This document shows positions 1 to 58,102 of a DNA stretch of 64,000 bases, one piece after another. The first letter of the stretch is position 1. Every line of letters begins with the position of its first letter. Under the pieces are notes generated by a model that did no database searches, had not been told where the DNA came from, and worked only from the letters and a program-made list of their open reading frames with translations. The stretch spans positions 72,501 through 136,500 of the forward strand of contig NZ_CP035417.1 in assembly GCF_004123675.1 (NCBI RefSeq). Reading direction: 5' to 3'. Both the position numbers and the translations under genes were made by a program. The stretch is from Leisingera sp. NJS204. GTDB taxonomy: Bacteria; Pseudomonadota; Alphaproteobacteria; Rhodobacterales; Rhodobacteraceae.

Positions 1-2537
<2,537 letters not shown>

Positions 2538-2760
2538 GATCCAGTAACAGACAGTGTTACTCAAAACCAAACAAGCAAACACATCCCATAATACAAGACC
2601 TGGACAACGTTGATTGTAACCGACGCAAGTTGCACGTGCCTGCCGCCACCCGGCGGTGACACAGCAACCGGGCGGCATCTCGCGCATTTGCTGAAGCAAA
2701 TACGCTGCCTGCCGCTCGCCAGCCTTGCTTCGCAAGGCCGTCGGAATTGGATTTTTCTTG
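2538..2760 (+). other. 23S-5S transcribed spacer
   Basis: This is a roughly 220-base spacer between 23S and 5S rRNA without a gene. It holds two clear inverted repeats. One is a 7-bp arm pair TGCCGCC (2641-2647) and GGCGGCA (2671-2677). The other is a perfect 6-bp hairpin CCTTGC-TTC-GCAAGG (2723-2737). These are probably processing structures of the rRNA precursor. No tRNA is seen in it. Confidence 0.7.
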
Positions 2761-2876
2761 GTTTGGTGGCTACAGCACAAGTGAAACACCCGGTCCCTTC
2801 CCGAACCCGGAAGTTAAGCACTGTCGCGCCGATGGTACTTGGGCTCAAGCCCTGGGAGAGTAGGTCACCGCCAAAC
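2761..2876 (+). rRNA. rrf: 5S ribosomal RNA
   Basis: A block of about 115 bases shows the 5S pattern: the terminal stem strands GTTTGGTGG and CCGCCAAAC, the loop motif CCCGAACCCGGAAGTTAAG, and GGGAGAGTAGGTC near the 3' end. Its place between 23S and tRNA-fMet is the usual Rhodobacterales rRNA operon order. The ends are placed from the terminal stem. Confidence 0.96.
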
Positions 2877-2922
2877 CTAGTAAAATCCAATAATCTCTCA
2901 ATACGGTCTCAAAAAAACCTGA

Positions 2923-2999
<77 letters not shown>

Positions 3000-3006
3000 G
3001 AACTAA

Positions 3007-3186
3007 TTAACCTGACATATCAAAGGCTTCGGATCTACCATCCGGGGCCTTCTTCGTGTTTAGGCCTTCCGCAACCGACGCCAGCCGCAACAGCCCGGCC
3101 AGATCCCCCTCCAGCGTCAGATCCAGGCCAGCGCCCGCCGCCGCAGGCGTCAGCACGATCCGCTCCACCAATGCGCGCAGTGACTC
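3007..3186 (-). pseudogene. Relic: C-terminal tail of a large serine recombinase
   Basis: The minus strand reads SLRALVERIVLTP followed by a DLTLEGDLAGLL-like stretch and a stop at 3007. That pattern is typical of the last ~60 residues of recombinase-family (large serine integrase) proteins. Nothing recombinase-like continues on the far side of the IS element (beyond 4500), so the gene had already lost its upstream part before the IS inserted. It sits just downstream of tRNA-fMet, a favoured place for integrated elements. The assignment rests on recalled family pattern and was not confirmed by a search. Confidence 0.6.
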
Positions 3187-3214
3187 TGGACGTGTCCCGT
3201 TTTCGTGCCGCTCC
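3187..3214. repeat. IS3-family terminal inverted repeat, orfB side
   Basis: This 28-bp arm starts TGGACGTGTCCCG and ends GTGCCGCTCC. It pairs with the arm at 4470-4497 with four mismatches. It begins immediately after the CTC target copy and lies 10 bases beyond the orfB stop codon. Confidence 0.9.
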
Positions 3215-3437
3215 AAGTGCTCGTTTAGGCCACTTTCCGTTCGAATGCGACGGGGCTTTTCCAGCCCAATGCTGAGTGCCGCCGTCGCGGATTGTAGAAG
3301 CCATTGATGTAGTTGAAGATGGCCAGTTCAACGGCCCTACGCGTTGGCCACGACCTTCGCCAGATCAGCTCTGCCTTGATCGTTTTGAAGAACGTTTCGA
3401 CCGCCGAGTTGTCGTAGCAATTTCCCTTGCCGCTCAT

Positions 3438-3480
3438 CCACTGCCCCGGCAGTGCATGTTTACATGCATGAGAGGGGGAC
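3438..3480 (+). repeat. Palindromic mini-element, copy 1 (in-frame insertion in orfB)
   Basis: The sequence starts CCACTGCCCCGGCAGT and continues with the hairpin GCATGTTTACATGC and the tail GAGAGGGGGAC. Its layout is a small hairpin (ACTGCC/GGCAGT), a second hairpin and a purine tail. It inserts 39 bp into the transposase gene, in the opposite orientation to copy 2. The insertion limits were deduced from the transposase family sequence on either side. Confidence 0.75.
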
Positions 3481-3806
3481 ACGCTGAACCCGTGTTGTCG
3501 CAGGATTATCTGATAGTCATGAGAACAGTATTGCGATCCACGATCCGTATGATGAATGCAGCCCATAGGCGGTGATCTGAAGGCTATAGCCATGTTCAGC
3601 GCCCGGATCGCCAAGTCCCGCTTCATCCGATTGCTGATGGCCCAACCGATCACCCGCCGGGAATGCAGATCAAGGATCACCGCCAGGTAGAGCCAGCCCT
3701 CGCGCGTCCACACGTAACTTATGTCACCTGCCCATTTCTGATTGGGCGCATCTGCGCAGAAATCCCGGTTCAGCAGATTGGGTGCGATGTTGAAGGCGTG
3801 GTTGCT

Positions 3807-3852
3807 GTCCCCCTCTCGGCTGATTGCTTCGCAATCGTCTGCCGGGCAATGG
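3807..3852 (-). repeat. Palindromic mini-element, copy 2 (frameshifting insertion in orfB)
   Basis: On the minus strand it begins CCATTGCCCGGCAG, has the hairpin GATTGC-GAA-GCAATC, and ends GAGAGGGGGAC, the same layout as copy 1 with a different hairpin stem. It inserts 41 bp, which is not a multiple of three and therefore breaks orfB. Uninterrupted flanks would read CGACC followed by GACAGC; at copy 1 they would read CATC followed by GACACG. Both insertion points therefore share C|GACA. Confidence 0.75.
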
Positions 3853-4158
3853 TCGTCACCTTGTATTTCTTAGATCGTTCGACACGGATGCCATTCTCAC
3901 GCATCAAACGCCCGACGCGACGATGGCCAATGTTCAGGCCCAACTCCTTCAGTTCCTCGGTCATCCGTGGGCGGCCATAACTGCCCAGGCTGAGGCGAGA
4001 TTGTTCCTTGATATGCGCCAGAACGACCATGTCAGTGCGCTGCCTTTGACTGGCCGGGCGGCTGCGATAGGCCCGTAGACCGCGCTCACTGACATCCAGC
4101 ACATTGCACATCCGCTTGGCGCTGAAGGTATCAGTGTGTTCTTCGATGAACCTGAACC

Positions 4159-4434
4159 TCATGGCTTTTGGCCCGCGAAGAACTGCGTTGCCTTTTTTAA
4201 GATCTCCCTCTCCTCCTTGAGAATGCGGTTCTCCCGTCGAAGCCGTTCATTCTCTCGGGCAAGGTCGAGGTCTTTGTCGGATACCACCTCGGTGTCGCGA
4301 TGCGCTGTGATCCACTTGTTCAGGGTCGAAAGGCCAACACCCAAATCAGAGGCCACTTGCTTCCTGCTCAGCCCGCTCGTCAGCGCAATCCGCACCGCAT
4401 CGGCCCGGAATTCTTCTGTCCGTTTCAGTCCCAT
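4159..4434 (-). CDS. IS3-family transposase OrfA
   Basis: This 91-residue protein has an N-terminal helix-turn-helix (residues ~8-45, including SRKQVASDLGVGLSTLNKWI). A leucine-zipper-like helix follows (ARENERLRRENRILKEE, residues ~60-80) and probably mediates multimerisation with OrfB. The start was placed at 4434 because AGGAGA precedes it closely on the mRNA; a longer reading from 4455 lacks that. Its stop overlaps the orfB start as ATGA, and a slippery AAAAAAG lies 11 codons before the stop. Confidence 0.9.
   Translation of the reverse strand: MGLKRTEEFRADAVRIALTSGLSRKQVASDLGVGLSTLNKWITAHRDTEVVSDKDLDLARENERLRRENRILKEEREILKKATQFFAGQKP
4192..4198 (-). other. Programmed -1 frameshift site AAAAAAG in the IS
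   Basis: The minus strand reads AAAAAAG inside the last codons of orfA. Slipping back one base here joins orfA to the orfB frame without a stop (continuing KKGNAVLRGPKAMRF), which is how IS3-family elements make the OrfAB transposase. This is direct reading plus known family behaviour. Confidence 0.75.
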
Positions 4435-4469
4435 AGTTCGTCTCCTTTGCTGCAATAAATGCTATCAAA

Positions 4470-4497
4470 GGAGCGGCATCAAACCGCGACACGTCCA
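4470..4497. repeat. IS3-family terminal inverted repeat, orfA side
   Basis: The 28-bp arm ends CGACACGTCCA and is followed directly by the second CTC target copy (4498-4500). It is the inverse of the 3187-3214 arm with four mismatches and lies about 35 bases upstream of the OrfA start. Confidence 0.9.
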
Positions 4498-4565
4498 CTC
4501 ATTCGGCAATTGAACAGAAGACGGGAAGCTTGACTCAGTAAAATGGTTTTGCCATTCAGCAAGTG

Positions 4566-4775
4566 TGACCGGTTCCGCGAGTGTTTCAATGCGCAGCGGA
4601 AGAAATAGGGAACACGGTGCGGCGTACCCATTAGGGACCAAATCCGTGACTGCCCCCGCAACTGTGAGCGGTGAGTGACGCTGAACATGCCACTGGGATC
4701 TTTCCCGGGAAGGCCAGCCGAACCAAGACCCGCGAGTCAGGAGACCTGCCGGACACAGGACAAAGACTTCGCTAG
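4566..4775 (+). promoter_or_regulatory. Cobalamin riboswitch
   Basis: The ordered cobalamin-riboswitch landmarks are all present: GGTTCC at 4571, GGGAACACGGTGC at 4609-4620, AATCCGTGACTGCCCCCGC with AACTGTGAGCGG after it, then CCACTGGGATC and CGGGAAGGCCAGCC (about 4689-4720), and the closing CGCGAGTCAGGAGACCTGCC (about 4731-4750). The element sits ~135 bases before the cobalt-transport operon, so adenosylcobalamin should switch that operon off. It begins ~70 bases outside the IS end and is undamaged. Confidence 0.95.
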
Positions 4776-4908
4776 CGGAGTGTCTGCCCTTTTCCACCGG
4801 ACGCCGGGGTGCGCGTCTGGCGCGGCTGCCGTTCAGGCTTCTCCGTGCCACTCTCCCCGTTGTTCATTCCTGATTGCAGGTGCGCCTGTGTCGTCGAATG
4901 AGGACGAA

Positions 4909-5694
4909 ATGAAACTGAATTATCTGGCTGCAGCTCTGGCCGTATCCCTGCCGGTCACCGCATCGGCGCATTTCCAGCTGAACTACACTGAAAACGTGCT
5001 AATCGGGAAGCCCGGCGATGTGCCGATGGGGCTGGTGTTCTGGCACCCGCTGGAAAACGGCCATGTGATGGACATGGGCAAACCCGAAGAATTTTTTATG
5101 GTTCACAAGGGCGAAAAGGTTGATCTTTCGGACCGCTTGGAACCGGCCACATTCAAGGGCGCGGAGAACGAAGCCGCCGCCTACAGGGCGTCGGTTCCGG
5201 TCAAGCGCTCGGGCGACTATGTGGTGGTGACTGTGCCCGCGCCCTATTATGAGGAAAGCGAAGACATCTATATTCAGCAGATTTCCAAAGTCGTGCTGAA
5301 CCGCAACACCCTGCCCACCGATTGGGATCAGCCGGTGGGCCTGGAAACCGAGATCCTGCCGCTGAACAAGCCCTATAACGTCATTGTCGGCTCTACCTTC
5401 TCAGGTCAGGTGCTGGCGGATGGAAAGCCGGTTCCGGGCGCCGAGATCGAGGTTGAGTTCATGGCATCAGAGCCTGACCTTGCGGCCTTTTCCACAACCA
5501 ACCCGACGGTTCAGCCGATGTCCGGCGGCGCCATCGTTGCGATTGCAGACCAGAATGGCGTCTTTTCCTTTGGCATTCCGAAAGCGGGCCACTGGGGCTT
5601 TGCTGCTCTCGGCTCCGGCCCGGCGACTGAGCATGACGGCAAGGAACTCAGCCAGGACGCTGTGTTGTGGATCCACGCTGAAGAGCTGAAGTGA
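4909..5694 (+). CDS. DUF4198 (NikK-like) periplasmic metal-uptake accessory protein
   Basis: This 261-residue protein starts with a signal peptide (KLNYLAAALAVSLPVTASA, cut near residue 20). It continues with the His-rich start AHFQLNYTENVL and a DUF4198 body of beta-sandwich type, ending DAVLWIHAEELK. DUF4198 proteins accompany CbiM/NikM-type cobalt or nickel ECF transporters and are thought to deliver metal in the periplasm; the metal here is inferred from the B12 riboswitch. The start was placed at 4909 because the longer open frame runs back through the riboswitch, and GAGGAC precedes this ATG. It is first in the operon, with cbiM 10 bases downstream, and is the only intact gene of the set. 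Confidence 0.82.
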   Translation: MKLNYLAAALAVSLPVTASAHFQLNYTENVLIGKPGDVPMGLVFWHPLENGHVMDMGKPEEFFMVHKGEKVDLSDRLEPATFKGAENEAAAYRASVPVKRSGDYVVVTVPAPYYEESEDIYIQQISKVVLNRNTLPTDWDQPVGLETEILPLNKPYNVIVGSTFSGQVLADGKPVPGAEIEVEFMASEPDLAAFSTTNPTVQPMSGGAIVAIADQNGVFSFGIPKAGHWGFAALGSGPATEHDGKELSQDAVLWIHAEELK

Positions 5695-5704
5695 GAATAG
5701 CGCC

Positions 5705-6321
5705 ATGCATATCGTAGACGGCGCACTGTCGAATCCGGTTGTGATCGGCGGCGCGGTTGCCGCCGTCGGCGGTATCGCCATGGGGCTGCGGAGCCTGCCG
5801 CTGGAACGTATTCCGGCGGCGGGGGTTCTTTCGGCCAGTTTCTTTGTGGCCTCCCTGATCCATGTCCCGATCGGGCCGAGTTCGGTTCATCTGATCCTGA
5901 ACGGGCTTGCGGGCTGGTTCTGGGCTGGGCGGCCTTTCCGGCCCTGTTTGTCGGCCTCTTGCTGCAGGCGGTGTTCTTTGGCTTTGGCGGGCTGACCGTG
6001 CTGGGCGTGAACGCCGTGAACATCGCCCTGCCTGCAGTTCTGGTCGGGCTGATATTCCGACCGCTGGTGGCCCGCGGCTCGCCTCTGCAGGGCGCCATCT
6101 GGGGCGGTATCGGCGGCGGCGCGGCCATTGCTGCCACAACACTTGCTGTTGCAGTCTCGCTGATGTTGTCCGGCGATGAGTTTATCCTGGCCGCGAAACT
6201 GGTGTTCTTTTCCCATATTCCGGTGGTGATCATCGAAGCGCTTTTGTCCGGCGCTGCCATTTTCCTGGCGCGGCGTGTGAAGCCCGAGCTGTTTTTCGAC
6301 ACAAAAGGAAGCCTTGCATGA
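5705..6321 (+). pseudogene. cbiM: CbiM cobalt ECF-transporter substrate-binding subunit, one frameshift
   Basis: The protein begins MHIVDGALS, the CbiM N-terminus whose amino group and His2 bind the metal. It has about six membrane segments. The frame breaks near 5910-5914, where GCGGGCTGG needs one more G to continue the expected GLVLGWAAFPALFVGLLLQA; with that base restored the protein has 205 residues. The stop overlaps the next start as ATGA. It is either a recent pseudogene or a base missed in sequencing. Confidence 0.85.
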
Positions 6322-6910
6322 TCCGCTCCTGCATTCTGATCCTTGCACTGCTGGCGCCGCTCCCGGTGATGGCACACAATGTTATCTCAGCTGTCTTTCC
6401 GTCCGGTTCCGACATTGAAGGCGAAGTGGGCTTTTCCAACGGTGACATGGCCGCGGACCTGCTGATTGAGATCTTTGACGCGGCCGGCAGCAAGCTGGGA
6501 GAGTCCAGAACCGACAGTGACGGCTTTTTCCTGTTCACCCCGTCGGAGCCTGTGACACATATCTTCCGCGGCGATCTGGGTGCTGGCCACGTGGCCGAGA
6601 TGATGATGGACGGTGCGGAGGTCGCGCAGATCATTGGGCAAAGCCCGGGCGCGGCAGCAGTTTCAGCGGCTGCTGTCCGGACACCTCTGCAGCGCCGGCG
6701 GCGGCAGGGTCCGCGGGCCTCTCCGATCAAACCCGCTCCGAGCTTGCCACCATGATGCGCAATGAACTGCGCCCGCTCCGGCAGGAGCTGACAGCGTTCA
6801 AGAACAAGTCGGACTTTCAATCCGTGCTTGGCGGCATCGGCTATATCTGCGGCCTGTTCGGGCTGGGCTTCTACATTGCCGCACGCCGCAAGATCGGCAG
6901 CAGCGCATGA
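6318..6910 (+). pseudogene. CbiN/NikL-like accessory subunit of the cobalt transporter, one frameshift
   Basis: The product has a signal peptide (cut after PLPVMA), a small beta domain resembling a carboxypeptidase-regulatory-like fold (residues ~20-90), and an Ala/Pro linker. A basic coil (RNELRPLRQELTAFKNK) and one C-terminal membrane helix (GIGYICGLFGLGFYIA) follow. The last part is read only after adding one base near 6677, in GCTGTCCGGACACC (a C-run one short). Corrected length is 197 residues. Its start and stop overlap its neighbours as ATGA. Such proteins replace CbiN in some Co/Ni ECF systems; the name is by analogy. Confidence 0.72.
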
Positions 6911-7693
6911 CCTATGTTCTGACGGGCGAGGAAAAACCGCTCGGCGGTTTCGGCACCTTCCACGCCAAGGTCACAGCAATTGACCCGCGGATGCGCATCG
7001 TGATGACGGCAGCCTATGCGGTGGTGGTTGTCTCGCTCAGCAATCTTTGGGTTCTGGCGGCCGCTCTCGGCCTGTCTATGTGGCTGCTGGCCTTCTCTGG
7101 CCTGCCGCCCCGGAAAACGCTGAAACGGATGGCGATGATGGACAGTTTCATCATCTTCATGCTGGTGCTGCTGCCCTTTACAGTGCCGGGAACCCGGCCC
7201 TGTCCATTTGGGGCTGGAGGCCAGCTGGGAAGGCCTGTGGCGTGCAACCGAGATTGCCCTTACCGCCAATGCGGTGATCCTTGCGGTTATGACACTGGTG
7301 GGTTCGATGGAGCCGGTAACCATGGGCCACGCGCTCTTTGCCCTCAAGATGCCGGAGCGGCTGGTGCACCTGATGATGTTCACCATCCGCTACATCGACG
7401 TTCTGCGCGAGGAATACCAGCGCCTGCGCACCTCGATGAAGCTGCGCGGCTTCCGACCCGGAACCAATTGGCACACCTACCGCAGCTATGGCTATCTGGT
7501 TGGCATGATGCTGGTGCGCTCCATCGAACGGTCGGAGCGCATTCTGGCGGCGATGAAATGCCGGGGGTTCTCCGGCCGCATCATCCTGCTGGAGGATTTT
7601 CGTTTCAACCGGTCCGACCTGCTGTTTGCCGCGGCGTTGTCCGCCGCACTTGCTGCCCTGATCTGGGCGGAGGCCGCCTATGCCGCTTCTTGA
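6907..7693 (+). pseudogene. cbiQ: CbiQ cobalt ECF-transporter T subunit, two frameshifts
   Basis: This is the energy-coupling transmembrane subunit. It shows the CbiQ pattern of membrane helices and cytoplasmic coupling helices with LRGFRP and CRGFSG, the two Ala/Arg-Gly motifs that contact the ATPase. The N-terminal frame ends at LPFTVPG. Adding one G near 7190 (CCGGGAACC) gives NPALSIWG, and adding another near 7211 (TTTGGGGCTGG) gives GLEASWEGLWRATEIAL and the rest. Corrected length is 262 residues. It overlaps cbiO by 14 bases. Confidence 0.85.
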
Positions 7694-8328
7694 TTTGAAC
7701 AATATCCACTTTGCCTACCCAGGGCTTGATCCGGTGCTGGAAGGCGCCTCGATGCGGCTGAACGCTGGTGAACGGCTGTCGATTTCCGGGCCCAACGGCG
7801 CCGGAAAATCGACACTGCTGAAATCATTATGGGGCTGCTTGTTCCCGCCAGCGGCACCGTCACCGCCTTTGGCAAGCCTTGCATGGCGGAAGCGGATTTT
7901 CACGAGATGCGCCGCCGCGTGGGCTTTGTGTTTCAGGACGCCGACGACCAGCTCTTCTGCCCGACCGTGGCCGAGGATGTGGCCTTTGGTCCGCTCAACC
8001 TGGGCAAATCCAAACAGGATGCCTTGGCGATTGTTGACAGCGTGCTGACCCGCCTGGAACTGATGCACCTGCGCGACCGGGTGACCCACAAACTGTCGGC
8101 GGCGAGAAGAGGCTGGTGACACTGGCCACGGTACTGGCCATGGAGCCGGCGGTGCTTATTCTGGATGAGCCGACAAACGCACTGGACCCGGACAACTACG
8201 CGCGGCTGGCCGGGATCCTGAAAGGGCTTGATCAGGCAATCCTTCTGGTCAGCCATGACCAGGAATTCCGTAAACAGATTGCTCCTGGAGGATATCGCTT
8301 GAAGGGCCGCGAGCTTATACGGGCTTAG
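7680..8328 (+). pseudogene. cbiO: CbiO cobalt ECF-transporter ATPase, two frameshifts
   Basis: The ABC ATPase shows Walker A GPNGAGKST, the Q-loop FQDADDQLF, Walker B LILDEPTNALD and the H-loop LVSHD. Two bases are missing. One is an A near 7828, where CTGAAATCATT should read LLKIIMGLLVP. The other is a G near 8100, where CTGTCGGCGGCGAG should give the signature LSGGEKR. With both restored the length is 216 residues, short but normal for CbiO of this type. It is the last gene of the riboswitch operon. Confidence 0.86.
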
Positions 8329-8549
8329 GACGTGCGGCTAATCGAAACGAATGGCCCAAACATGAACCGGCACCCGAAAAAGCCCCTGCCCAACAACCCG
8401 TCCTCGCTCCAGGCTGGGCGGCAGGCAGCTGGCGGGTTCTCCTATCCGCCACGACCGGCCGCATTGCCAAATGGCATTGGTAGCTCAGGGTAACTCGGAA
8501 TCCGTGCTACTTTTCGACATGTTGTTAAAAAGTAGGAGGGATATGTGAG
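8329..8549. other. Intergenic stretch with no recognised element
   Basis: About 220 bases separate cbiO from the decarboxylase. I see no terminator with a T-run and no second riboswitch. A ribosome-binding site AGGAGGG at 8534-8540 serves the next gene. A short inverted repeat CCAAATGGCATTGG lies near 8467. Confidence 0.5.
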
Positions 8550-9973
8550 ATGGAACGTGTTCGGCGTGGCTTGATGATGGGCAAGCGGTAGCTTTAGAAA
8601 CAGCCTACAGAGCGGCGAAGGCTTTTCGCGAGGATCTGCCTCAGGGGCTGGCCCGCCCCAGCTTAGAACTTGGCGAAGCTGCAAACCGCTTCCTGGGGCC
8701 CCTTGCTGAAACAGGGGTGCCGGAGAGTAAGGTTATCGAGGATATCGTGCAGCAGGCTGACGGCGGGCTGCACAAAATGGCAGCCCCGACCTTCTTCGGC
8801 TATGTCCTTGGTGCGTCGCATCCCGTTGGTGTAGCTGCTGATTTTTTAGTGTCAGCCTGGGGGCAGAACGCGGGTTCATCCTTTGAGACACCAGCAATCA
8901 CGGGTATGGAGCGCGCCGTCTGCAACTGGGTTATTGAATTGCTGTCGCTGCCTGCCGAAAGCGGAGCCGGATTGGTGACCGGCGGTACGGTTGCAAACAT
9001 GGCTGGCATTATGGCGGCACGCCATGCGCTGCTGGCCGCTCAGGGTTGGGATGTCGAAGCTGATGGGCTTTTCGGGGCACCGGAGATTCCGGTTTTGATC
9101 GGACAAGACGCGCATTCTGCGCCATTTGCAGCCCTGCGCTACGCCGGATTTGGAGCAAGCCGCACACAAACTGTAGCTGCCGACAGCGAAGGGAGGATTA
9201 AGCCGGACGCCTTTCGGGCAGCAATAAACCGGTGCAGCAAACCGCCGCTTGTGATCCTGCAGGCAGGTCAAATAAACACTGGCGCCTTCGATCCGTTTGA
9301 CGAATTGATCCCAATGGTACGCGAGAAGAAGGGCTGGGTTCATGTCGATGGAGCGTTCGGGCTATGGCTCGCTGCAGTGCCCGAGCTTGCAGATCGGCTG
9401 GAGGGGGTCGGCGAAGCGGACAGCTGGGCAATCGACCTGCACAAGTGGCTTAACGCTCCTTTCGATGCCGGCATGGTTATAGTACGCGACCGTGCGCCGC
9501 TCGTTGCGTCGATGTCTGCCCGTGGCGCCTATCTGCCTGAGACCACTGAGCATTGGGAGCCAAGTGATTCAACGCCTGAATTATCCCGGCGGGCAAGAGG
9601 TGTCCCTAGCTATGCGATACTGCGGCATCTCGGCCGGGCGGGTGTTCGCGATCTTGTGGCGCACCATTGCCGCCTCGCGGAGCGGATTGCCCGAACGGTG
9701 TCTAACGAGCCCGGCTTAACAGTCCTGAACCGCATCCACAGCAACCAGGTTGCGATTTGCTGCGGCGACGGGACCGATGACGGCAAGCTCACCATGCAGG
9801 TCCTGCGGCGTGTTCAGGAAAATGGCAAAGTTTACCCGACACACGGCGAATGGGCTGGCCGCAAGATCATTCGGGCTTCTGTCATTGGATACGGCATGCA
9901 GGAAGAAGATGCTGACCTTCTTTCAACTGAAATAATTGATGCTTATCGCTGCTGTGTCGCGGATGTTCGCTGA
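8550..9973 (+). pseudogene. PLP-dependent group II (glutamate/aromatic amino acid type) decarboxylase, one frameshift near the start
   Basis: The fold is that of AADC/GAD decarboxylases: GTEAN-type region as VTGGTVANMAG, HVDGAFG, and the PLP lysine in DLHKWLN. AGGAGGG followed by ATG at 8550 gives MERVRRG, but this frame stops after 14 codons. Adding one base near 8569 (CGTGGCTTGATG) continues into LDDGQAVALETAYRAAK and the long frame. Corrected length is 474 residues. If the deletion is real, translation could only restart at about 8717 and would miss ~55 N-terminal residues. The substrate cannot be told from sequence. Confidence 0.8.
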
Positions 9974-13392: not shown

Positions 13393-14343
13393 TCAGCCCT
13401 GCAGGGCCTCCCACATCTCCAGATCGCGCTGGGCGGTCCAAATACGCGGGGTGTCGATGCCGCGGGCCTCGTCATAGGCGCGGGCGACGTTGAAAGGCAG
13501 GCAATGCTCGTAGATCGCATAATCCGAGAACTTCGGGTCGCACTCGGCACGCACGGCGTCCCAGGCCTCTTTCAGGGTGCCATTGCGGGCGGCTACCTTG
13601 GCGGCGGGACGGTACGTGCTCTCGACAAAGCCGCGGGTGTTTTCGATTGCGGCATTCACCATGTCCTTGCCAACCAGCGCGTCGCCGCGGCCAGGTGCGA
13701 TGGCGTCCACGTCGAATGACTTGATGTTGTCCAGCGTATCGCCCCAGTCGCTGAAGTGGCCGTCACCGCAGTAGCAGGCGGAGTGGTATTCCACGATGTC
13801 ACCGGTGAACATAACGTTCTGATCCGGCACATGGATCACGATGTCGCCTGCGGTATGGGCCCGGCCCAGGTGCATCAGATCGACCCGCCGGTTGCCAAGA
13901 TACACGGTCATATCGTCGGAAAAAGTCGTGGTCGGCCAGGTCAGGCCCGGAATGCTTTCATGGCCTTCGAACAGCCGCGGGAAGCGCTGGAACTCGCTGT
14001 CCCAGTCTTCCTGGCCGCGTTCCACCACCATGGCACGGGCCGCATCGCCCATGATGACCTGCTGCGCGCCAAATGCCGAGGCGCCCAGAACCCGCACCGC
14101 GTGGTAATGGGTCAGTGCCACATGGGTAATCGGCTTGTCGGTCACTGACCGAACGCATTCGATCACCTTGTTCGCCAGCCGCGGGGTGGCCTGTGCCTCA
14201 ATAATCATCACGCTGTCGTCGCCGATGATCACACCGGAGTTGGGATCTCCCTCGGCGGTGAAAGCATAGAGGCCTTCGCCAATCTCATCAAAGGTGATTT
14301 TCTTTTCGGTCATGTCCCCTTGGGACGCAAAAGCTTTTGCCAT
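13393..14343 (-). CDS. Metallo-beta-lactamase-fold hydrolase with altered metal site
   Basis: The 316-residue protein has the MBL fold, with later ligand regions HTAGDIVIHV and FTGDIVEYH. The core motif reads THYHAVR at about residues 78-84 where the family norm is HxHxDH, so the Asp-His pair of the second metal site is Val-Arg. The start was kept at 14343 because AAGGAAG precedes it; MTEKK eleven codons in is an alternative. It follows fahA by 11 bases. A role in hydrolysing a thioester or lactone from the aromatic pathway is a guess. Confidence 0.85.
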   Translation of the reverse strand: MAKAFASQGDMTEKKITFDEIGEGLYAFTAEGDPNSGVIIGDDSVMIIEAQATPRLANKVIECVRSVTDKPITHVALTHYHAVRVLGASAFGAQQVIMGDAARAMVVERGQEDWDSEFQRFPRLFEGHESIPGLTWPTTTFSDDMTVYLGNRRVDLMHLGRAHTAGDIVIHVPDQNVMFTGDIVEYHSACYCGDGHFSDWGDTLDNIKSFDVDAIAPGRGDALVGKDMVNAAIENTRGFVESTYRPAAKVAARNGTLKEAWDAVRAECDPKFSDYAIYEHCLPFNVARAYDEARGIDTPRIWTAQRDLEMWEALQG

Positions 14344-14354
14344 GGTGGTCTTCC

Positions 14355-15611
14355 TTATCTTGCGTAGGGGTCTTCAAGGGCGGCCAGAACGGTGCCGGTG
14401 CAGTCGCCGAACCCGATGGAATAGCCGTCGCCCTTTGCCGCGCCCCGCAGGGTCAGCGTGTCGCCATCGGCAATGAAGGAGCGCTCTTCGCCACTGTCCA
14501 GCGTCAGTGGTTCCTTGCCGCCCCAGCTCAACTCCAGCAACGAGCCGCGGCTTTCCTTGCTTGGGCCGGAGATGGTGCCGGACCCCAAAAGGTCGCCTGC
14601 ATTCATCGGGCAGCCCGAGGTGGTGTGATGTGCCAGCTGCTGCGCGGCGGAGTAGTACATTTCCTTGTAGTTGGTTCGCGCGATGGTGGTCGCCTCTTTG
14701 CCTTCCGGCGCCATGGTGACTTCCAGGTCGATGTCATAGAGCATCGGCCCGCAGTCCTTCAGGTGGTCCAGCAGCTCCACCTCGCGCTCGGGCGTGTCGC
14801 AGCGGAACGGCTCCAGTGCTGCTTTGGTCACGATCCAGGGGCTGATCGAATTGGCGGTCGCCTTTGCCTGGAACGGCCCCAGCGGCTGGTATTCCCAGGC
14901 CTGAATGTCGCGCGCCGACCAATCGTTCAGCAGCACATAGCCAAAGATATGGTCATCGGCCTCTTGCACAGTAATCGGACCGTCCGAAGGCGTGCCGACA
15001 ATGGCGCCCATCTCCAGTTCGATATCGAACCGCGCGCAGGGGGCCCAGCGGGGGGCTGCATCATTGGGGCCTTTCAGCTGTCCCCAGGGGCGGCGCACTT
15101 CGGTGCCGGAGACCACCACAGAGGATGCCCGTCCGTTATAGCCGATCGGGATGTGCAGCCAGTTCGGCGGCAGCGCGTTTTCCGGGCCGCGAAACATTGT
15201 GCCAACGTTGAAGGCGTGGTTTTTGCCGGCATAGAAGTCGGTGTATTCGCTGACTGCAAAGGGCATGTGCAGCTCGGCATCCACAGCGGAGACCAGCAGG
15301 GCTTCCACCTTTTCCTGTTCGGCAGCGCCGTCGGAAAGCAGCGCAGTCAGCCGTTCACGCAGTGCGGCCCATACTGCGGGGCCTTCTTCCATCAGGTCGT
15401 TCCAATAGGGCACGTCGAACAGCGGCGCATCGCCCAGCTGGATCAGCCCGGTCTCTTCGGCGGCCTGCATGTCCAGGATCATGCCGCCAATGGCCACGCC
15501 GCAGCGCGGGTCATCGCCCTCAACAGAGAACACGCCATATGGCAGGTTGTTCAGCGGGAACGGGTGGGCCGCGTCATTGGCCGAGGCCACCCAGGATTTC
15601 AGCAGAGGCAT
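14355..15611 (-). CDS. fahA: Fumarylacetoacetase
   Basis: This 418-residue enzyme splits fumarylacetoacetate into fumarate and acetoacetate, the last step of homogentisate breakdown. The N-terminal SH3-like domain (to ~110) and the FAH core are complete. Metal and catalytic residues are visible in SEYTDFYAGKNHAFNVG (~121-137), FDIELEMG (~197) and LLNDWSARDIQ (~229). It lies between hmgA and the MBL gene on the same strand. Confidence 0.96.
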   Translation of the reverse strand: MPLLKSWVASANDAAHPFPLNNLPYGVFSVEGDDPRCGVAIGGMILDMQAAEETGLIQLGDAPLFDVPYWNDLMEEGPAVWAALRERLTALLSDGAAEQEKVEALLVSAVDAELHMPFAVSEYTDFYAGKNHAFNVGTMFRGPENALPPNWLHIPIGYNGRASSVVVSGTEVRRPWGQLKGPNDAAPRWAPCARFDIELEMGAIVGTPSDGPITVQEADDHIFGYVLLNDWSARDIQAWEYQPLGPFQAKATANSISPWIVTKAALEPFRCDTPEREVELLDHLKDCGPMLYDIDLEVTMAPEGKEATTIARTNYKEMYYSAAQQLAHHTTSGCPMNAGDLLGSGTISGPSKESRGSLLELSWGGKEPLTLDSGEERSFIADGDTLTLRGAAKGDGYSIGFGDCTGTVLAALEDPYAR

Positions 15612-19806: not shown

Positions 19807-21870
19807 TCACCTGTGTTTTGAAGGTCCCGCCGGCTTGCGGTTGGGACGGGTGTCGCCGCCTTTCCCAGGTTTGGCAAATGGAGCGCGGGCCTTGTTTTTC
19901 TTGCTGTTCGGCTTGCCGGCCGGCGGTTTGGGGCCCTTGGCTTTGAACGGTTTGGCTGCCGGTGCGCCGGGCTTTGCCATCCGTTTGGACGGATCCGAAG
20001 CGCCTTTGGGCTTGGCCGTGACTGCCGGAGCGGGCTTGCGGGCGCGGTCATCGGGGCGCGGTTCGCGGCGTTCTTCCCGGTCCTGCTTGCCGCTCCATTC
20101 CTTGCGCGGCGGCCGGCTGTCGCGGCCGTCATCGGATTTGGCGCGATAGGGTTTGGGGCCATCCTGCTTGCCGCGGTGCGGTTTTTCGCCGCGATCACGG
20201 TCGCCCTTGAACCCGCCCTTGGGGCCGCCGGGGCCACGGCGCTGGGCTGGTCCCAGATCAGGGGCTTCGGACAGCTGTGTCAGCACCGCGCCTGGCTCCA
20301 GCTCGTTCTTGCCGCCCAGTGCTTTCAGGAAGCCATCAACCGCATCCTGGCTGATTTCGGCAAAGGTTTCGTTTTCTTGTATCCGGATCGCCCCGATAAC
20401 GTCGCGATCAATATTGCCGGCCTTGCACAGCATCGGCAGCACCTTGCGCGGGTCCGCACCAGCGGCGCGCCCGCCTGACAGCGAGAACCACACCGACGGG
20501 CCGAAATCCTTGCGTTCTTTGCGTTCCTTGCGCGGTTCCTCCGCACCGGCCGGGCGCAGATCTTCCGGCGCCGAATGGCGGCTGCGGAAAAGGCGCAGGT
20601 AGGTGGTGGCAATCTGCTCGGCAGAGAAATGCTCCAGCAGGGTCTTAACGCCTGCCTGTTCCTGCTCCGCAACAGGCTCCTGCCAGACAGGGTCGGCCAG
20701 CATCCGCTCCTCGTCACGTGCCATAATGTCGTCGGCCGAGGGCGCTTCGCAGTGTTCTGCCGTCAGCTTGGCCCACTTCAGCAGCCGCAGCGCCTTGCTG
20801 CGGGCCTTGGGCGGCGCGATCAGCGCGCTGACGCCTTTGCGGCCCGCGCGGCCGGTGCGGCCCGAACGGTGCAGCAGAGTTTCGTGGTTCGACGGCAGCT
20901 CGGCATGTACCACCAGCTCCAGCCCTGGCAGGTCGATACCGCGTGCGGCCACGTCAGTGGCCACGCAGACCCGGGCGCGGCCGTCGCGCATTGCCTGCAG
21001 CGCCTGGCTGCGCTCGGCTTGGGACAATTCGCCCGACAGCGTCACCACCGACAGACCGCGGTTGGTCAGCCGTGCCGCCAGACGGTTCACCGCCGCTCGG
21101 GTGTTGGCAAAAACAATGGAGCTGGGCGCCTCATAGTAGCGCAGCACATTGATGATGGCGTTTTCCGCATCCTGCTGCGCGACACTCATCAGCCGGTATT
21201 CAATGTCGGAATGCTGTTTGGTTTCGCCTGCGGTCTGGATCCGCTGCGCGTCTTTCTGGAATGTCTTGGCCAGGCTGGCAATGCCCGACGGCACGGTGGC
21301 CGAGAACAGCAGGGTGCGGCGGTCTTCGGGCGCTTCGCCCAGAATGAACTCCAGATCTTCGCGGAAGCCCAGGTCCAGCATTTCGTCGGCTTCGTCCAGC
21401 ACCACGCCGCGCAGATTGCTGAGATCAATAGAGCCGCGCATGATGTGGTCACGCAGCCGCCCTGGTGTTGCCGCGACGATATGCGCACCGCGGGCCAGCT
21501 CTCGGCGCTCGTCGCGCATGTCCATGCCGCCGACGCAGGAGGCGATCACCGCACCGGCGCCCTTGTACAGCCAGCTCAGCTCGTGTTTCACCTGCAGCGC
21601 CAATTCCCGTGTCGGCGCAATCACCAGGGCCAGCGGCGCGGCAGCAGCCTCAAATGCCTCAGCCTCACCCAGCAGTGTCGGTGCCAGCGCCAGTCCGAAC
21701 CCGACTGTCTTGCCTGATCCGGTCTGCGCCGAAACCAGCAGGTCTCGCTCGTTCAGCTCTGGCTGGGTCACAGCCTCCTGAACTTGGGTCAGGGTTTCAT
21801 ATCCGCGCTCTTGCAGTGCGTTGGCCAGGGCTTGTTTCACGAGGAGGGCTGTCTTTCCCGCAAGGCGCAT
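19807..21870 (-). CDS. DEAD-box RNA helicase with DbpA-type C-terminal domain
   Basis: The 687-residue protein has helicase motifs in order: Q-motif region, AQTGSGKT (I), PTRELALQ (Ia), TPGR (Ib), DEAD (II), SAT (III), VATDVAARGID (V) and HRSGRTGRAG (VI). A DbpA-like RNA-binding domain follows at about 455-530. A ~140-residue disordered tail rich in Lys, Arg, Gly and Pro comes last and probably adds non-specific RNA binding. It resembles CsdA/DeaD proteins acting in ribosome assembly and cold adaptation. It follows rpmE-rplS on the same strand after a terminator. Confidence 0.92.
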   Translation of the reverse strand: MRLAGKTALLVKQALANALQERGYETLTQVQEAVTQPELNERDLLVSAQTGSGKTVGFGLALAPTLLGEAEAFEAAAAPLALVIAPTRELALQVKHELSWLYKGAGAVIASCVGGMDMRDERRELARGAHIVAATPGRLRDHIMRGSIDLSNLRGVVLDEADEMLDLGFREDLEFILGEAPEDRRTLLFSATVPSGIASLAKTFQKDAQRIQTAGETKQHSDIEYRLMSVAQQDAENAIINVLRYYEAPSSIVFANTRAAVNRLAARLTNRGLSVVTLSGELSQAERSQALQAMRDGRARVCVATDVAARGIDLPGLELVVHAELPSNHETLLHRSGRTGRAGRKGVSALIAPPKARSKALRLLKWAKLTAEHCEAPSADDIMARDEERMLADPVWQEPVAEQEQAGVKTLLEHFSAEQIATTYLRLFRSRHSAPEDLRPAGAEEPRKERKERKDFGPSVWFSLSGGRAAGADPRKVLPMLCKAGNIDRDVIGAIRIQENETFAEISQDAVDGFLKALGGKNELEPGAVLTQLSEAPDLGPAQRRGPGGPKGGFKGDRDRGEKPHRGKQDGPKPYRAKSDDGRDSRPPRKEWSGKQDREERREPRPDDRARKPAPAVTAKPKGASDPSKRMAKPGAPAAKPFKAKGPKPPAGKPNSKKNKARAPFAKPGKGGDTRPNRKPAGPSKHR

Positions 21871-57583: not shown

Positions 57584-58102
57584 ATGAAACGACCGATCCT
57601 GATCCATCCCGATCCCCGCCTGAAAAAGGTCTGTGTGCCTGTGCCGGACCTGAGCGATGATTTGCGCGTGCTGGCGGATGACATGCTGGAAACCATGTAT
57701 GCAGCCCCCGGCATTGGCCTGGCGGCGCCGCAGATCGGTATTCTGCAACGGCTGATCGTGCTGGATTGCGTTAAGGAAGAGGACGGCGATGCGCGCCCCT
57801 TGGTGATGTTCAACCCGCAGGTCCTGTCGTCGTCGGACGACACCAACGTCTATGAGGAAGGCTGCCTGTCGATCCCGGACCAGTATGCCGAAGTGACCCG
57901 TCCCAGGGTCGTAGAAGTCGAATGGATGGATCGCGACGGCAATGCGCAGCGCGAGACCTTCGACGGGCTTTGGGCCACTTGCGTGCAGCATGAGATCGAC
58001 CACTTGAACGGCAAGCTGTTCATCGATTACCTGAAACCGCTGAAGCGCCAGATGATCACCCGCAAGATGCAGAAGCTGAAGCGCGAACGCGCCCGCGCCT
58101 GA
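57584..58102 (+). CDS. def: Peptide deformylase
   Basis: The 172-residue metal enzyme removes the formyl group from new proteins. All three motifs are intact: GIGLAAPQ, EGCLS and QHEIDHLNG, with Cys and two His as ligands and Glu as base. The start MKRPILIHPDPRLKK at 57584 fits the family; AAGGGGGCG before an in-frame ATG at 57554 makes a 10-residue longer product possible. First in a def-def2-fmt run. Confidence 0.93.
   Translation: MKRPILIHPDPRLKKVCVPVPDLSDDLRVLADDMLETMYAAPGIGLAAPQIGILQRLIVLDCVKEEDGDARPLVMFNPQVLSSSDDTNVYEEGCLSIPDQYAEVTRPRVVEVEWMDRDGNAQRETFDGLWATCVQHEIDHLNGKLFIDYLKPLKRQMITRKMQKLKRERARA

Follow-up and report, generated by a model that had tools for sequence, protein, structure and literature searches.

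Has Leisingera sp. NJS204 lost a chromosomal importer of what is likely cobalt, or has its assembly lost a few bases? The question is raised by a stretch of 64,000 nucleotides (hereinafter, the window; chromosome positions 72501-136500 in a genome of 5,036,933 bases and 8 contigs), in which the M, L, Q and O genes of a metal transporter operon and the start of the decarboxylase gene behind them are out of frame. We believe that this is very probably the result of consensus errors left over in one patch of a PacBio RS II/HGAP assembly, and that cbiM, the nikL-like gene, cbiQ, cbiO and the decarboxylase gene are most likely intact in the cell.

Results

The affected genes are as follows (window coordinates; ORF, open reading frame; PLP, pyridoxal phosphate):

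5705..6321, + strand: cbiM, frame lost from 5911 (alignments and ORF check; PF01891 found as two pieces in this genome)
6318..6910, + strand: nikL-like gene, frame lost from about 6678 (alignments and ORF check; NF058648 on the G017 protein)
6907..7693, + strand: cbiQ, one-base gaps at 7193 and 7210 (PF02361, partial in this genome, also found on G017)
7680..8328, + strand: cbiO-like ATPase, one-base gaps at 7821 and 8098 (PF00005 on the G017 protein)
8550..9973, + strand: PLP-dependent decarboxylase, one-base gap at 8575 near the start (PF00282 on the part that is still open)

The transporter family names were assigned on the intact copies of the complete sister genome, G017, and that of the decarboxylase on the part still open in the window (418 amino acids from a GTG at 8717, against 474 in G017).

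G017 also served as the reference for the gaps. It aligns to window positions 4497-8350 at 97.0% identity with 7 gaps, every one a base absent from the window; the stretch 4497-5910 has none. Six gaps lie within the transporter genes (5911, 6678, 7193, 7210, 7821 and 8098), and the seventh that we count, at 8575, is in the decarboxylase gene, in the next aligned block. Two other gaps were left out: 8347, the last of the 7 in the first block, arises where the alignment ends next to a segment of about 103 bases that G017 lacks, and the one at 8471 is intergenic and ambiguous, with an adjoining substitution.

The sequence-only reading had placed seven single-base deletions at 5912, 6677, 7190, 7211, 7828, 8100 and 8569; all of them were found, at 5911, 6678, 7193, 7210, 7821, 8098 and 8575, respectively, i.e., at most 7 bases away. 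Its description of the pattern as "purely -1, homopolymer-only" is correct in the first part, as all seven gaps are one-base losses. The second part is too strong: five of the seven fall within homopolymers 3-5 bases long (G4, C4, G5, A4 and G3 in G017); 6678 and 8575 do not.

A comparison with sister strains, proposed in the same reading, was made by aligning the window with seven relatives; six of them were taken as Leisingera sp. ANG59, ANG-Vp, ANG1 and ANG-M1, L. daeponensis DP1N14-2 and the Bugula symbiont AB1. In the alignment of the eight sequences, gaps whose length is no multiple of three number 6 in the window and 0 in the relatives, and the M, L, Q and O genes are whole ORFs in all seven relatives. 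At five of the six transporter gap sites the base is present in every relative; at 6678 it is present in G017 alone, the other six having in-frame gaps there. The gaps are private to the window among the 8 genomes compared.

Read in the frame of G017, with 7 gapped codons skipped, the four broken transporter genes contain no new stop codon; set against G017, they have 68 synonymous and 18 amino-acid changes (pN/pS, the ratio of nonsynonymous to synonymous change, 0.095). After polarisation with six outgroups, the window branch has 6 amino-acid (N) and 14 synonymous (S) changes and the G017 branch has N 5 and S 11, so that the raised amino-acid change expected of pseudogenes is not observed on the window branch, with 50 of the 86 changes assigned to neither branch. 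Purifying selection is still seen in the broken genes, and their coding constraint is kept.

Bacteria acquire about 10 substitutions per indel, and genes that had been dead long enough to collect six ordinary indels should hold more changes. The chance of so few changes with six indels is 0.0017 at 5 substitutions per indel and 5e-10 at 10, but 0.90 or 0.46 at 1 or 2. Slow decay of the operon is therefore disfavoured.

Frame-breaking gaps with clean flanks were then counted against G017 ORFs of 100 amino acids or more over 166 kb; there are 20 of them, of which this zone of 2.67 kb holds 7 and the rest of the aligned sequence 13. Counting one-base gaps wherever they fall, the zone has 7 missing bases and no extra one, against 14 missing and 13 extra outside it. 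Binomial values for the clustering range from 3e-11 to 2e-9; they are indicative only, since the zone was picked after the fact, for looking odd, and such numbers describe rather than prove. The automatic choice took wrong-strand ORFs at several places, and the gene-level reading rests on the ORF check, the eight-sequence alignment and single inspection. Ten of the 13 outside places were inspected singly, and the remaining three adjoin those. One clear gene split was seen among the inspected places; the others are at gene starts, compensate each other, or fall on short or doubtful ORFs (the latter at 20675, 62461 and 95358). At chromosome position 57960, one extra base cuts a gene of 496 amino acids in G017 into 143 and 379.

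As a density control we used a codon-frame hidden Markov model (HMM) over 796.5 kb of the chromosome. Its densest 3 kb is this zone, with 8 same-strand switches (true gene junctions included); the next densest 3 kb outside the zone has 4, and the densest in 456 kb of G017 has 5. The model flags only 2 of the zone breaks outright, calls others gene junctions, and misses 6678 and 8575. The sequence-only reading also stated that every gene from 8.7 kb to the window end reads cleanly, and no non-junction switch occurs there; this agreement goes only so far, as the HMM calls most of the known breaks junctions. Non-junction switches in the 796.5 kb number 13: 2 in the zone, 4 with one repeated pattern, 1 that recurs in G017, and 6 others. 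The four with identical geometry, at chromosome positions 229626, 281803, 560688 and 3614020, are probably one insertion sequence (IS) with a programmed frameshift.

Concerning the method, the replicon lengths (chromosome 4,246,063, plasmid C7 59,982, total 5,036,933 bases) are exactly those published for Leisingera sp. 204H, whose eight replicons sum to the same total (PMC7348020). That genome was assembled with HGAP from 709 Mb of PacBio RS II reads; short reads are unmentioned, and the contig ends were compared by BLAST and the edges trimmed manually (PMC7348020). The equality of lengths indicates that the present sequence is a PacBio assembly made without short-read correction. Plasmid C7 aligns over 13.2 kb with plasmid NZ_CP038240.1 of the sibling 201A; 2 mismatches lie at the ends, and the single gap is in a C run, which is shorter in 201A. 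Chromosome position 1 is what we take to be the start of a DnaA-like protein, so that the contig seems to have been rotated.

The features that precede the broken genes or lie between them are:

1..2538, + strand: 23S ribosomal RNA (rRNA), truncated by the window start (Rfam RF02541); C run at 2420 one base short against three other copies
3187..4497, - strand: IS copy (comparison of the copies in the genome)
4553..4767, + strand: cobalamin riboswitch (RF00174, 129.7 bits against a gathering score of 31.5)
4909..5694, + strand: DUF4198 (NikK-like) gene, in frame, with no gap against G017 (PF10670 on the G017 protein)
8345..8450, no strand: intergenic segment of about 103 bases that is not in G017 (alignment to G017)

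By Rfam search, the opening 3 kb of the window hold 23S and 5S rRNA and one transfer RNA, and the IS comes next. Four rRNA operon copies are present in this genome, and the 23S copy of the window has, at 2420, one C fewer in a run than the three others. The change is of the same kind as the patch and adjoins it, although one real mutation in that copy may also explain it. The whole of window positions 1-4497 (rRNA and IS) matches chromosome positions 268255-272752, and the gap at 2420 is the sole difference.

The transposase gene orfB of the IS copy (3225-4162, - strand) is in two frames. Seven other copies align with it gap-free, and an IS copy at 78% identity also seems split at the same place of orfB, so the split is perhaps a conserved frameshift rather than an error. 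In G017, some 27.7 kb (G017:C1:76897-104596) separate this rRNA operon from the cobalt operon, where the present genome has only the IS copy (window 3000-4550).

In the intact G017 copies, DUF4198, CbiM, the NikL family and CbiQ score above their cut-offs; for cbiO, TIGR01166 is below its cut-off (180.3 against 211.8) and ABC_tran above. Judged by these families, the operon is a predicted NikKMLQO-type energy-coupling factor (ECF) metal transporter. A cobalamin riboswitch lies upstream of it, and for this reason the metal carried is likely cobalt, though the subunit set is NikKMLQO-like. According to the accessible part of PMC2667541, NikKMLQO operons behind B12 riboswitches are predicted to carry cobalt in five proteobacteria.

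Another candidate importer is elsewhere in the genome. Plasmid C7 carries an open CbtA gene (13822-14484), closely preceded on the same strand by a cobalamin riboswitch; the annotation of the near-identical 201A plasmid lists CbtA, CbtB and DUF1636 beside a Tn3 transposase. Across 21 genomes of the genus, CbiM occurs in 8 and CbtA in 16 (both in 3, CbiM only in 5, CbtA only in 13, neither in 0), a near-exclusion with a Fisher p of 0.0028, kinship ignored. Of the other two genomes with both, G008 has CbtA at C19:386700-387362 with one in-frame TAG, otherwise open, and a search of 14 kb there gave no riboswitch match; G014 has it open at C27:39866-40528 with a riboswitch present. A literature search found no paper treating CbtA together with CbiM.

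Discussion

The sequence-only reading preferred a local artefact of sequencing, next to an rRNA operon and an IS, over a loss of cobalt uptake. This artefact view is supported by the method, by selection, by the spread of the breaks and by the one-base loss in 23S. A PacBio RS II/HGAP assembly reported with no mention of short reads favours it; the accessible part of PMC4888979 describes such data as prone to single-base deletions in homopolymers. It is further favoured by the lack of any sign of relaxed selection, by the continuation of the breaks into an unrelated gene (the decarboxylase), by the few breaks in the surrounding 166 kb, by the missing base in the C run of the adjoining 23S copy, and by the absence of the gaps from seven relatives whose four genes are whole. 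We are confident that the frameshifts are not a real feature of the genome. We presume that, along about 2.7 kb, individual bases were dropped from the consensus, most of them in short runs. The local cause was probably few or conflicting reads beside the long two-copy repeat of rRNA and IS or, alternatively, a hand-trimmed contig edge.

Several observations weigh against this explanation. Two of the seven losses are not in clean runs. The repeat itself (window 1-4497) has only one gap and the next 1.4 kb have none. The mean depth, by arithmetic from PMC7348020, is about 140-fold, so a local drop must be assumed. More than half of the changes in the four genes could not be placed on a branch. 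Finally, a redundant system that could free the operon from selection is present, i.e., CbtA with its riboswitch on C7.

The last point leads to the first alternative: a real loss, by ordinary mutation, of a chromosomal cobalt transporter made redundant by plasmid CbtAB. The open CbtA behind a cobalamin riboswitch and the near-exclusion of CbiM and CbtA in the genus (with kinship ignored in the Fisher test) speak for it; with the plasmid CbtA present, the chromosomal operon may be dispensable in this strain, and the prior for a real loss is raised. Redundancy explains neither the hit in the decarboxylase gene nor the lack of amino-acid change. All the breaks are one-base losses, the opening gene of the operon is intact, and the substitution test at 5 or 10 substitutions per indel argues against ordinary decay. 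We consider such a loss highly unlikely.

The second alternative is that a single event, e.g., error-prone repair beside the rRNA operon, produced a real burst of one-base deletions over the five genes. The tight cluster and the single direction fit this, and the substitution test is compatible with it at 1 or 2 substitutions per indel. We know of no such local -1 mutation spectrum. The losses are mostly in runs of 3-4, while the indel hot spots of E. coli, in the accessible part of the review PMC10710837, are runs of 5-8; moreover, the sequencing method yields the same pattern without a new process. A burst is accordingly very improbable. The two alternatives can also be combined into a real shower of -1 changes over 2.7 kb beside the rRNA operon, after plasmid CbtAB had freed the operon from selection, and to this, too, we give very little credence. 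Phase variation or programmed frameshifting of the operon, to which the position of most breaks in single-base runs might point, is rejected as extremely improbable, since none of the seven relatives shares any break in the eight-sequence alignment and, to our knowledge, known contingency loci do not resemble seven sites in five genes with runs of 3-5.

We return to consensus error, under which the apparent gene breaks are most likely an ordinary matter and not real mutations. Taken at face value, the record describes a strain without this cobalt importer and without the start of the decarboxylase; the error explanation keeps the five genes in its likely repertoire. It is also a warning that errors can be densely packed in one place of a complete reference built from PacBio data only. 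The genus-wide near-exclusion of the two cobalt importers is, in our opinion, worth more than the frameshifts.

Comparison with known systems

The nearest methodological parallel is the residual deletions in PacBio RS II/HGAP data of PMC4888979. As far as the accessible part of that paper goes, the shared features are one-base losses, mostly in runs, in an HGAP assembly; there, 561 deletions were counted genome-wide by comparison with Illumina data, while the present ones are crowded into 2.7 kb and known from the assembly alone.

With the NikKMLQO ECF systems behind B12 riboswitches, as presented in the accessible part of PMC2667541, the operon shares the order DUF4198 (NikK-like)-M-L-Q-O after a cobalamin riboswitch. 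It differs from them in that four of its genes read as broken in the assembly; its cobalt transport is predicted from the riboswitch and from that paper. The CbtAB cobalt transporter likely performs the same task with proteins unrelated to the ECF set, and it is encoded outside the window.

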